Shown here: positions 30,196-56,479 of the stretch, in pieces
Position numbering within the stretch: the first letter of the stretch is position 1
How the letters are laid out: every line of letters starts with the position of its first letter
NCBI RefSeq assembly: GCF_013409625.1
Contig: NZ_JACCBF010000001.1
Span: 1-64,000 of the forward strand
Length of the DNA stretch: 64,000 nt
From: Nocardioides kongjuensis
Lineage (GTDB): Bacteria > Actinomycetota > Actinomycetes > Propionibacteriales > Nocardioidaceae
Direction: 5' to 3'
Notes under the pieces: generated by a model
What the model saw: only the letters and a program-made list of their open reading frames with translations
Told to the model about the DNA's origin: nothing
The model's database searches: none
Translations under genes and position numbers: made by a program

Positions 30196-30309
30196 GTTTG
30201 GCGCTCGCTTCGCTCGCGCATGTCGCGCCGCCTTGTGACGCCGTTTCTTCCTCCCCCGCTCGCTCGTTCCTCGCTCGCTCCTCCGTCCAGAAACGGCGGG
30301 CGGCGCGAC
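30196..30309 (+). repeat. Dispersed two-tier hairpin element, copy A
   Basis: Architecture in order: a 30-nt flank containing GCTCGCTTCGCTCGCGC (30196-30225), an outer stem arm (30222-30232), an inner stem arm CGCCGTTTCT (30239-30248), a 40-nt loop rich in GCTCGCTCG, then the mirrored inner (30289-30298) and outer (30299-30309) arms. Both stems are perfect, 10 and 11 bp. The flank is an exact 30-bp inverted repeat of 30459-30488. Sense orientation after manC. Confidence 0.85.
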
Positions 30310-46435: not shown

Positions 46436-46491
46436 GGGCTCTCCTCTTCGCGTGTCACCCAGGGCGTGACGACGCGCGCGAGGCCCGTCGC

Positions 46492-46649
46492 GTTCTCTTC
46501 CATCCGGACTGTGACCGTCGGCTCCGGAGTCGCACCGGATCTGCTGACCCGCCCCGGTCGTGACCGGGCCGGCGCTCGCGGGCTCGGTCGCCCCGGATCG
46601 GCCGGGACGCCCTCACCGCCGGTGGGGAGTTCCACCCCGCCCTGAGAAC
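46492..46649 (-). ncRNA. FMN riboswitch (RFN element) upstream of ribH
   Basis: Reading the minus strand, the conserved blocks occur in order: closing GTTCTC, AGGGCGGGGTGGAACTCCC, CACCGGCGGT, AGCCCGCGA, GATCCGGTGCGACTCCGG, AGCCGACGGT, AGTCCGGATGGAAGAGAAC. The 5-prime and 3-prime ends pair (46644-46649 with 46492-46497). It regulates ribH at 45998-46435, with 56 nt between aptamer and start; translational control is likely because no T-run terminator is seen. Confidence 0.96.
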
Positions 46650-46662
46650 GTACGGCGTCAGA

Positions 46663-54566: not shown

Positions 54567-55268
54567 GTGGCCACCGCGCAGCTGATCGACGGGTTCGTCG
54601 ACCTGGTGCTCGGCTCGCGCTGCGTGGGCTGCGACCGGCCCGGGCGCCCCTGCTGCCCGGCCTGCCGCGACCTGTGCCGGCTGCTGGCCACCCAGGCCGT
54701 GCCGCACTGGCCGACGCCCTGCCCGGCGGGGCTGGTGCCGACCTACGCGGTGGGGGACTACGACGGCCTGCTGCGTGACCTCGTCCTCGCCCACAAGGAG
54801 CGCCGGGTGCTCGCCCTCGCCCGGCCCCTCGGTGACCTGCTCGCCGGGTCGGTCGGGGCCGCGGCACCGCCGGGCCCGCTGGTCCTGGTCCCCGTGCCGT
54901 CGCGTGCCACGACCGTGCGCCAGCGCGGCCACGACCCCACCCTCGCCATGACCCGGGCCGCCGCCGCGCTGCTCGGCGCCGAGACACGGGTGGCCCGGCT
55001 GCTGCGGCTGCGCCCCGGTGTCGTCGACCAGGCCGGCCTCGACGCCGCCGGCCGCTCCGCCAACCTCGCCGGCTCGATGACGGCGCCCGCGCACGCCGTA
55101 CGACGCCTCGCGCGGCGCTGCCCCCGCGCCCACGTCGTGGTGTGCGACGACGTGCTCACCACCGGCGCCACGCTGCGTGAGGCACAGCGCGCGCTGGAGG
55201 CCGCCGGGGTGCCCGTGCAGGCCGCGGCGGCCGTCGCCGCGACCCGGCGCCGGAACCCCGCCAGATGA
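54567..55268 (+). CDS. ComF-family phosphoribosyltransferase-like protein
   Basis: A 233-aa protein with an N-terminal zinc finger (CVGCDRPGRPCCPAC) and a C-terminal PRTase fold with the PRPP loop VVVCDDVLTTGAT and RQRGHDPTLAMT. ComFC homologues take part in natural transformation in other bacteria; in actinobacteria this gene is conserved beside lpqB and hpf without proven function. GAGGTG precedes the GTG. A non-coding stretch of 584 bp follows. Confidence 0.88.
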   Translation: MATAQLIDGFVDLVLGSRCVGCDRPGRPCCPACRDLCRLLATQAVPHWPTPCPAGLVPTYAVGDYDGLLRDLVLAHKERRVLALARPLGDLLAGSVGAAAPPGPLVLVPVPSRATTVRQRGHDPTLAMTRAAAALLGAETRVARLLRLRPGVVDQAGLDAAGRSANLAGSMTAPAHAVRRLARRCPRAHVVVCDDVLTTGATLREAQRALEAAGVPVQAAAAVAATRRRNPAR

Positions 55269-55315
55269 AGGGTCTGAACTTCGGGCCAAGCCTTTCGCCG
55301 TCACCACCGACGGAC

Positions 55316-55321
55316 TAACGT
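55316..55321 (+). promoter_or_regulatory. -10 box for the comF-hpf intergenic RNA
   Basis: TAACGT lies 8 nt before the first base of the predicted closing helix at 55330. Confidence 0.5.
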
Positions 55322-55329
55322 CTGGTCAT

Positions 55330-55593
55330 GGAGTCCGCCCGGGTCCGTGGTTGCGTCGCCCAGGCCGGGCGCGAGCCCAGCCGGGTGCGGCAAGCCGATG
55401 CCAGTCGCAGGCGAAACGGTCCACGTAAGCCGGCCCCCGGGCCGGTGATCACGGTGCGGCTTAGTCGTCAGTCCTGCCTCGGCCCGGACGTCAGATACGT
55501 CCGGCCCCGGGAGAGGGCCGGTAGTGGCAACAAGCTGCGGAAGCCCCAGCAGGCGGGTGTGGGGACGAAGACCAGGTCGGCCGGGCGGACTCC
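55330..55593 (+). ncRNA. Structured RNA between comF and hpf, candidate raiA-motif RNA
   Basis: A 264-nt stretch with no credible ORF whose ends are complementary: 55330-55342 pairs perfectly with 55581-55593 (13 bp). Inside are CCGGCCC-CC-GGGCCGG and GGCC-c-GGACGT-CAGAT-ACGTCC-GGCC hairpins, plus unpaired, less GC-biased stretches such as GGCGAAACGGTCCACGTAAG. From memory, the raiA RNA motif of Firmicutes and Actinobacteria is a large conserved RNA of unclear role located near comFC and raiA, exactly this context. Identity with that family is inferred from position, size and structure, not from a covariance search. Confidence 0.65.
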
Positions 55594-55601
55594 GCCATTT
55601 C

Positions 55602-55712
55602 GCGCTCGCTTCGCTCGCGCATGTCGCGCCGCCTGCCAGCGCCGTTTCTTCCTCCCCCGCTCGCTCGTTCCTCGCTCGCTCCTCCGTGCAGGAACGGCGG
55701 GCGGCGCGACGA
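55602..55712 (+). repeat. Dispersed two-tier hairpin element, copy D
   Basis: Ungapped match to 30201-30311 over 111 nt with 7 differences (about 94%). Five differences fall in the junction between the two stems and two at the inner stem/loop edge, where pairing is kept through a G-T pair. It begins 9 bp after the RNA's closing helix and lies in sense orientation. A second GCTCGCTTCGCTCGCGC motif follows at 55724-55740. Confidence 0.88.
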
Positions 55713-55764
55713 TGGCGCCCTGGCGCTCGCTTCGCTCGCGCGCCGGGCGTCGCCCCTTGAGTTC

Positions 55765-55816
55765 GTGCTGGTCGAGCAACGGGCCAGCACACCGGCTTCC
55801 TGCCTGGGCGGCAGGA
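55765..55816 (+). promoter_or_regulatory. Hairpins in the hpf leader
   Basis: GTGCTGG/CCAGCAC (55765-55771 with 55784-55790) and TCCTGCC/GGCAGGA (55798-55804 with 55810-55816) lie just upstream of the hpf ribosome site. They may be part of a regulatory leader or mark the end of the preceding RNA. Confidence 0.4.
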
Positions 55817-55852
55817 GTACCCATCACGCCGAAATCCCCTTGGAGGTAACTG

Positions 55853-56479
55853 ATGGATGTTGTGGTCACCGGACGGCACTGCGAGATCTCGGACAGGTTC
55901 CGGGAGCATGCCGCGGAGAAGCTCACCAAGCTGGAGAAGCACGATCACCGGATCATCCGGGTCCATGTGGAGGTGGACTGCGAACCCAACCCCCGCCAGC
56001 ACGACCAGGCGGTGCACGTCGAGCTCACGGCCTTCTCCAAGGGGCCGGTGATCCGGGCCGAGGCCGCCGCTGACGACAAGATGGGTGCGCTCGACCTCGC
56101 GCTCGACAAGATGGCCGCGCAGATGCGCAAGGCCGCCGACCGCCGGCGGGTCCACCGCGGCCGTCGTACGCCGGTCTCGGTCGGCAAGGCGCTCTCCGAC
56201 GTCCCGACCACCGTGGTCGAGGAGGACAGCGACGAGGTCGCGATCGACCGGCAGGTCGGTCCGATCACGGTCACCGGCGACGGGCCGCTCGTGGTCCGCG
56301 AGAAGACCCACCCGGCGAGCCCGATGACTCTCGACCAGGCGCTCTACGAGATGGAGCTGGTGGGCCACGACTTCTACCTGTACGTCGACAAGGAGAGCGA
56401 GCGTCCGGCCGTCGTCTACCGCCGCCGCGGCTACGACTACGGCGTCATCTCGCTCGACATCGGGAGCGTGCAGGACTGA
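55853..56479 (+). CDS. hpf: Ribosome hibernation-promoting factor, long form
   Basis: A 208-aa long HPF/RaiA protein: the N-terminal beta-alpha-beta-beta-beta-alpha domain (about 1-100; MDVVVTGRHCEISDRFREHAAEKLTKLEKH) blocks the decoding site, and the C-terminal domain (about 150-205; LDQALYEMELVGHDFYLYVDKESERPAVVYRR) dimerises 70S ribosomes into 100S. GGAGGT (55842-55847) precedes the ATG by 5 nt. It follows a structured RNA and repeat copy D. Confidence 0.95.
   Translation: MDVVVTGRHCEISDRFREHAAEKLTKLEKHDHRIIRVHVEVDCEPNPRQHDQAVHVELTAFSKGPVIRAEAAADDKMGALDLALDKMAAQMRKAADRRRVHRGRRTPVSVGKALSDVPTTVVEEDSDEVAIDRQVGPITVTGDGPLVVREKTHPASPMTLDQALYEMELVGHDFYLYVDKESERPAVVYRRRGYDYGVISLDIGSVQD

Follow-up and report, generated by a model that had tools for sequence, protein, structure and literature searches.

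What is the 264-nt stretch between comF and hpf in this Nocardioides DNA, and why should a large structured RNA lie from end to end within an open reading frame? The first-pass annotation of the window (the whole 64,000-nt stretch analysed here) had described an ORF-free RNA, closed by a perfect 13-bp helix, a member or relative of the raiA family, made as its own transcript, and possibly tied to ribosome hibernation. The first question has a nearly certain answer: the RNA at 55334-55589 is a raiA RNA. The second leads to a reading of which we are about half persuaded by sequence comparison, namely that the raiA (ModT) RNA has an Actinomycetes form that may serve hpf a second time, as a leaderless ORF in the leader of its mRNA. 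That the RNA belongs to the raiA family is established; what would be new is that the Actinomycetes form appears to be capped by a start codon and to be translatable. The features on which the argument turns are listed here.

54567..55268, +: comF-like phosphoribosyltransferase gene (PF00156 above cut-off; served as the comF query in relatives)
55316..55321, +: -10 box TAACGT, ending 6 nt 5′ of the ATG, a spacing kept in relatives
55328..55330, +: inferred transcription start A55328 and putative leaderless start codon ATG (conservation in relatives)
55328..55849, +: leader ORF, 173 codons, ATG start, with the whole RNA inside (ORF listing; frame kept in relatives)
55330..55342, +: P1 helix, 5′ strand, GGAGTCCGCCCGG (sequence; covariation)
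55334..55589, +: raiA RNA core, Rfam RF03072 (130.8 bits, cut-off 101.3, E 6.3e-32)
55354..55396, +: P2 variable segment, 43 nt, between P1 and P3 (lengths in relatives mostly change by threes)
55403..55409, +: P3 loop AGTCGCA, first half of pseudoknot pk-1 (partner 55455-55461)
55455..55461, +: pk-loop, second half of pk-1 (kept in relatives)
55581..55593, +: P1 helix, 3′ strand (sequence; covariation)
55842..55846, +: hpf Shine-Dalgarno sequence (SD) GGAGG (sequence)
55853..56479, +: hpf, long form, two domains (PF02482 and PF16321)

The raiA RNA and its fold

A covariance-model search of Rfam, the check that the first-pass annotation had proposed, matched RF03072 over all 209 model positions (55334-55589, + strand) at 130.8 bits, compared with a gathering score of 101.3. 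Together with covariation in P1, the pseudoknot pk-1, and the comF and hpf neighbors, this full-length match above the curated cut-off bears out the proposed family membership. In 198 of 211 parsed relatives comF and hpf both flank the raiA RNA on its own strand. The perfect complementarity of the two ends (55330-55342 with 55581-55593) can be read directly in the sequence, and for two given 13-mers would arise at random with a probability of about 0.30^13, near 2e-7 at the local base composition; the 264 nt fold at -149.9 kcal/mol, compared with -130.2 ± 5.0 for shuffled sequences (z -3.96; 0/200 shuffles as good).

The 13-bp helix is P1 of the family, and covariation across relatives, by which its reality was to be judged, is present: i) among 233 Actinomycetes sequences, each P1 position from +5 to +15 is paired in 228-233, with several pair types; ii) position +5 is paired in 228/233 compared with a shuffled mean of 114, and in the same 233 sequences pairing is well above that of shuffled partners wherever the columns vary; and iii) P1 covariation is stronger in 105 non-Actinomycetes raiA sequences than in Actinomycetes. 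Pseudoknot pk-1, which consists of 7 pairs between the P3 loop and the pk-loop according to the cryo-EM structure (PMC11751092), has 6 positions paired in 193/193 parsed relatives and one in 191/193; covariation is weak there because these positions vary little. Alignment to RF03072 places P2 as an extra segment inserted near the discontinuous GNRA turn. One conserved place reads GTCC..GG in 211/211 Actinomycetes RNAs and GTCT..AG in 104/105 others, a compensatory change (C/G versus T/A) that could mark the clade. GTCC..GG is likewise found at locus L317, titled Massilibacillus.

A raiA RNA scoring above cut-off was found in 88/98 genomes of the genus draw, and in 67/149, 54/196, 102/394, and 108/296 genomes of the family, order, class, and phylum draws, which overlap; we take family f1 to be the Nocardioidaceae and the class to be the Actinomycetes. 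Our main comparison set consists of 211 parsed Actinomycetes raiA RNAs (107 after redundancy removal), and our control set of 105 non-Actinomycetes raiA RNAs (Clostridia, Coriobacteriia, Acidimicrobiia, and others) taken from named contigs among the matches listed and from 30 loci of the phylum draw; 23 of 150 control-sample loci were left out before frames were counted. raiA/ModT RNA has been reported in over 2,500 species, and in C. difficile it is abundant and works in trans (PMC11706538). In Clostridia it is known as an abundant structured RNA.

The RNA resembles raiA/ModT of C. acetobutylicum and C. difficile in its full-length model match, P1, pk-1, a promoter at the foot of P1, and comF and raiA/hpf as neighbors. 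Unlike the Clostridial RNA, the Actinomycetes form appears to start on ATG or GTG, keeps an open frame, has GTCC..GG, and is often separated from hpf by a short spacer. The Clostridial RNA works in trans.

A start codon at the inferred first base, and a frame free of stops

The description of the stretch as ORF-free was mistaken: the 173-codon ATG ORF at 55328-55849 covers all of it, and relatives keep the frame open. Its ATG sits two bases 5′ of P1, and its TAA stop (55847-55849) lies 3 nt short of the hpf ATG; other ORFs also overlap the raiA stretch. The -10 box that had been noticed just upstream, TAACGT at 55316-55321, is sound, conservation supporting a promoter there (a simple scan of 55100-56000 returned 0 terminators and 0 consensus sigma-70 promoters). 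The box ends 6 nt before A55328, so that transcription is predicted to begin on the A of the ATG.

The triplet at +1 is ATG in 192/211 and GTG in 15/211 Actinomycetes raiA RNAs, for a total of 207/211 with RTG; a TANNNT -10 box ends 6 nt before +1 in 184/211 and 7 nt before it in 23/211; and RTG at +1 is combined with a -10 box 6-7 nt upstream in 206/211. C is found at -1 in 163 of the 207, and T at +2 in 208/211. Position +1 pairs with an extension of the P1 3′ strand in 113/233 sequences, compared with 110 shuffled, and position +2 in 157/233, compared with 156; the T at +2 is kept, yet its pairing is no better than shuffled, and the codon is therefore not accounted for by pairing. We accordingly rejected P1 as the cause of the codon, given this lack of conserved pairing at +1 and +2 and the scarcity of P1-like helices among raiA-less leaders (3/16). 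In mycobacteria, leaderless initiation needs an ATG or GTG at the 5′ end and nothing more, and start sites favor C in position -1 and pyrimidines in position +2 (PMC4633059). A general start-site preference of this kind could account for part of the CATG pattern.

Outside Actinomycetes, raiA RNAs have the same core, often a -10-like box before P1, and different starting bases. RTG occupies the corresponding place in 4/105, and when all of the 45 nt that precede the core are searched, the -10/RTG spacing is present in 10/105, by chance or otherwise, compared with 207/211 in Actinomycetes. Among 22 control-sample RNAs with Actinomycetes core letters (8 of them identical to RNAs already counted), 21 have the RTG start and 20 the open frame; the sole RNA without RTG is titled Massilibacillus.

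The frame that begins at +1 is stop-free to the end of the RNA in 193/211, compared with 17 and 21 for the other sense frames, and in 101 of the 107 non-redundant RNAs, compared with 3 and 5. The 18 RNAs with a closed frame are distributed over f1 (5), f8, f9, f10, f24, f35, and f42 (12 together), and f12 (1). An antisense gene was considered and rejected, the antisense frames being open in 26, 41, and 63 of 175 RNAs, compared with 164 for the sense frame. Since three blocks of the core each close one phase, through the TAA of CACGTAAG, the TTAG..TAA of the pk-loop, and a TAG in P8, the variable segments are the informative part. In 175 parsed RNAs, the phases that run into the TAA after P2 or the pk-loop stops are each used once, and the P8-blocked phase is used ten times. 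P2, P5, and P7 together contain 0 in-frame stops in 5,736 codons, where 90.2 are expected from composition, and 93 and 22 stops in the other frames; the non-redundant set contains 0, compared with 64 and 16 in the other frames and 55.5 expected, and the other-frame counts are 33 and 16 when the recurrent CTAGCC is left out. In the control RNAs, by comparison, the three frames are open in 2, 0, and 9 of those with GC of at least 0.6 (n = 47; the 9 belong to the +2 frame), in 2, 0, and 3 of those with GC of 0.5-0.6 (n = 48), and in 0, 0, and 1 of those with lower GC (n = 10).

Changes in length tell a similar story for two of the variable segments. Differences are a multiple of 3 in 53/58 disjoint close pairs for P2 (p 3e-20 compared with one third) and in 38/55 for P5 (p 6.5e-8), compared with 17/66 disjoint pairs for the spacer between RNA and hpf, which served as the control; the comF-RNA interval, of which the measured part takes in the end of comF, has an excess of its own, 37/66 (p 1e-4); and the related sequences are not independent, so that all of these p values are only a guide. 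Parsimony on the hpf tree finds multiples of 3 in 46/58 changes for P2 and 48/65 for P5. P7 and P8 mostly shift by one base (multiples of 3 in 0/30 and 1/46); as P8 has two open phases and the tail is nearly stop-free, these single-base changes are compatible with stop avoidance, yet they show that no fixed frame is kept in these two segments.

The likeliest alternative is that this is a raiA/ModT RNA of the usual kind, acting in trans as the Clostridial one does, and that its codon and open frame are by-products of the promoter context and the conserved core. Conservation of the RNA core agrees with it, as do ModT action in trans in C. difficile (PMC11706538), an initiator preference that could supply part of CATG (PMC4633059), and the lack of peptide conservation described below. 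Start-site preference does not, however, explain T over C at +2 (208/211), nor does it explain the stop avoidance and triplet indels that lie at least 26 nt downstream, and high-GC raiA RNAs without an RTG at +1 are open in that frame in just 2/47. We consider a purely trans-acting RNA unlikely.

hpf and the leaders that lack raiA

If the RNA is also the leader of hpf, as we favor, the distance between them matters. The end of P1 lies within 50 nt of the hpf start in 36/203 loci and within 30 nt in 6/203; where it is within 50 nt there is little room for a separate promoter, and hpf is probably transcribed through the RNA. The earlier proposal that the RNA is made as its own transcript stands as regards the conserved promoter at the foot of P1, but not as regards a separate 3′ end, which was not seen, and the compact loci suggest a transcript shared with hpf. 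The proposed tie to ribosome hibernation remains a proposal, which the leader-ORF evidence strengthens in Actinomycetes.

Beyond the RNA, stops return. In the RNA-hpf interval of f1, the ATG frame contains 82 stops in 3298 codons, compared with 36/3358 and 29/3353 in the other frames (OR 2.6; non-redundant OR 2.25, p 2e-5); other small families have a weak excess (OR 1.73, p 0.02), and in f20, which we take to be the Marinactinospora/Nocardiopsis/Nonomuraea group, the enrichment is absent (OR 0.92). The stop lies at -2 from the hpf start, touching it, in 12/123 f1 loci. A fusion of leader and hpf, or a fixed coupling point, was rejected, as hpf has no constant phase with respect to the ATG; we retain the touching stop just as a feature of some f1 loci.

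The f1 genomes without raiA provide a natural deletion series. Their hpf loci have a -10 box with RTG 6-7 nt further on in 18/20, and the motif occurs elsewhere in the same loci in 3/13, a small sample; part of this retention may be plain descent. None of these 18 leaders matched an Rfam family, and a P1-like helix is kept in only 3/16 at p < 0.05. In three of them, L132, L133, and L135, and in another hpf leader, L410, the ORF from +1 before hpf has shrunk to a start and a stop (ATG TGA or ATG TAA). In two more of the f1 leaders without raiA, L119 and L122, a seven-codon ORF runs from the +1 ATG to a TGA that abuts a 10-bp GC hairpin, an arrangement that looks like an attenuator before hpf.

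The same leaders bear on a second alternative, that translation acts on the RNA itself and not on hpf, a pioneer ribosome clearing or timing the folding, or marking misfolded copies for decay. Triplet indels are confined to the RNA, the spacer (17/66) showing no period of 3, and the phase of hpf is not fixed, both as this reading would have it; but it explains neither the retention of RTG at +1 before hpf after loss of the RNA (18/20) nor the early stop before hpf in f1, and we find it distinctly unlikely.

In 60 further hpf leaders from genomes not listed with a raiA match, 23 have the -10/RTG motif within 300-420 nt, a sum of 5/20 and 18/40 obtained with slightly different patterns, and some of these occurrences will be chance; by group, the motif is present in 12/12 of f23, 0/4 of f22, 0/4 of f7g53, and 3/7 of f1g19. 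A universal leaderless start of hpf in Actinomycetes is rejected on these counts. Ten hpf leaders without raiA scanned against Rfam gave no match. The f23 leaders (L389, L390, and L419-L428) have the same start type, mostly TAACGTTTGTGC-ATGGCACCC, and their leader is conserved and compact, some 115 nt long; six scanned against Rfam gave no match, and the consensus fold of ten is almost without covariation. The f23 leader is possibly an undescribed RNA motif.

Peptide, leader, and the supply of ribosomes

Is the frame kept for its peptide? Substitution rates at the first, second, and third codon positions of close pairs are 0.161, 0.200, and 0.153 in P2; 0.192, 0.129, and 0.128 in P5; and 0.160, 0.150, and 0.133 in P7. 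No synonymous excess was found in the variable segments, where synonymous and nonsynonymous counts are alike in all three frames; codon-position GC is slightly gene-like in P2, and not in P5 or P7; and RNAs differ in the phase, one of two, in which they read the pk-loop. The leader peptide matched 0 families in NCBIfam. Gene callers have annotated this ORF at some loci: the protein database yielded 76 matches to the leader ORF, some named hypothetical protein by the source, the best from Pimelobacter and Nocardioides. Ten of the 76 (P0019, P0044, P0045, P0047, P0048, P0049, P0052, P0055, P0064, and P0068) carry the leader frame and PF02482 on one chain; these are annotated HPFs lengthened at the N terminus, rightly or wrongly, by sequence of the raiA RNA.

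A dual-function RNA whose arginine-rich peptide (beginning M[E/A]..VRVRGC or similar) is itself functional would account for the open frame and for the 76 database proteins; against it, the variable segments have no synonymous or third-position excess, the middle of the RNA is read in differing phases among RNAs, and the ORF ends at varying places. We rejected a functional peptide as the main reading on the absence of substitution bias, of synonymous excess, and of an NCBIfam family, and on a GC pattern that is slight and confined to P2, and we regard it as improbable. As the frame is open and the peptide is not conserved, translatability itself seems to be selected. Our conclusion from the comparison, which we hold to be very probable, is that transcripts begin on this ATG or GTG beside P1 and that a stop-free frame is selected without conservation of the peptide.

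How might a leader of this kind serve hpf? Leaderless starts use assembled 70S ribosomes (PMC9386245, PMC4633059). The majority of M. tuberculosis transcripts end within 200-500 nt of their start, with polymerase paused; the translating ribosome promotes elongation, and nonsense codons reduced the downstream RNA of a reporter (PMC10937400). By our tentative mechanism, a 70S ribosome may initiate on the +1 codon of the nascent 5′ end before the 3′ strand of P1 exists, the codon being accessible until that strand is transcribed some 250 nt later; once loaded, the ribosome would trail RNA polymerase through the leader, sustain transcription into hpf, and end near the hpf start. An in-frame stop inside the RNA would uncouple ribosome from polymerase, so the frame must be open, whereas neither the peptide nor the exact stop need be conserved. 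If no ribosome were loaded, P1 would close beside the codon and the knotted fold would form; hpf would then be expressed less, or from its own SD alone, and the folded RNA would behave as the stable RNA known from Clostridia. The leader would in effect sense free 70S ribosomes, the particles that HPF inactivates, and as HPF takes ribosomes out of use, would report ribosome supply to hpf. Both this ribosome riding through the leader into hpf and the corresponding switch capped by a start codon, in which a 70S ribosome catches +1 before P1 closes, and scarce 70S allows the RNA to fold and be released, are possibilities toward which we lean less than halfway.

We wish to stress what would follow if this were true: how much hibernation factor is made would depend on how many of its own targets, free 70S ribosomes, are to be had, and selection would be keeping a large "noncoding" RNA translatable without a conserved protein, an unusual case. 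Among the best-ranked matches of a literature search, none joins the raiA motif with a leaderless start, the C. acetobutylicum paper (PMC10861870) lying outside that search; and the ModT paper contains 0 uses of "ORF" or "peptide" at the start of a word (PMC11706538).

The closest parallels are mycobacterial. Leaderless uORFs (Shell et al. 2015, PMC4633059) have RTG at +1, as the raiA leader would, with C favored at -1, and likewise end before or overlap the next gene; unlike them, the ORF here is the frame of a large structured RNA, and its peptide is not conserved. uORFs within riboswitch leaders of M. tuberculosis, namely the metE and ppe2 B12 switches (PMC11260477) and the Mbox of pe20 (PMC12810186), likewise place translation inside a structured leader with effects on the next gene, an effect that is proposed for raiA, and can raise or lower that gene (PMC11260477, PMC12810186). 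The metE uORFs begin at internal SD sites (PMC11260477), whereas the raiA leader would begin at the inferred first base of the transcript, and, unlike the metE uORFs, the raiA leader ORF spans the entire fold, in 15/18 families sampled. A ligand-binding riboswitch for hpf, suggested by the place before hpf, the knotted fold, and the Rfam type "Cis-reg; riboswitch", is very improbable given no terminator-like site in the scan of 55100-56000 and trans complementation in Clostridia (PMC11706538).

By way of analogy only, the candidate sRNA 1542 (201 nt; northern bands 280 and 60) has been reported in the 5′ leader of M. tuberculosis Rv3241c (PMC3526491), the M. tuberculosis homologue of hpf. Elsewhere in the window, an FMN riboswitch aptamer is located at 46488-46653 on the minus strand (87.5 bits, compared with a cut-off of 66.2). 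Between the raiA RNA and hpf, the palindromic repeat GCGCTCGCTTCGCTCGCGC occurs at both 55602-55620 and 55723-55741; the genome contains it exactly 10 times, including 4 times within the 64-kb window (the other two at 30201 and 30465), and, at no more than 1 mismatch, 16 times, compared with 10 for the reversed control.
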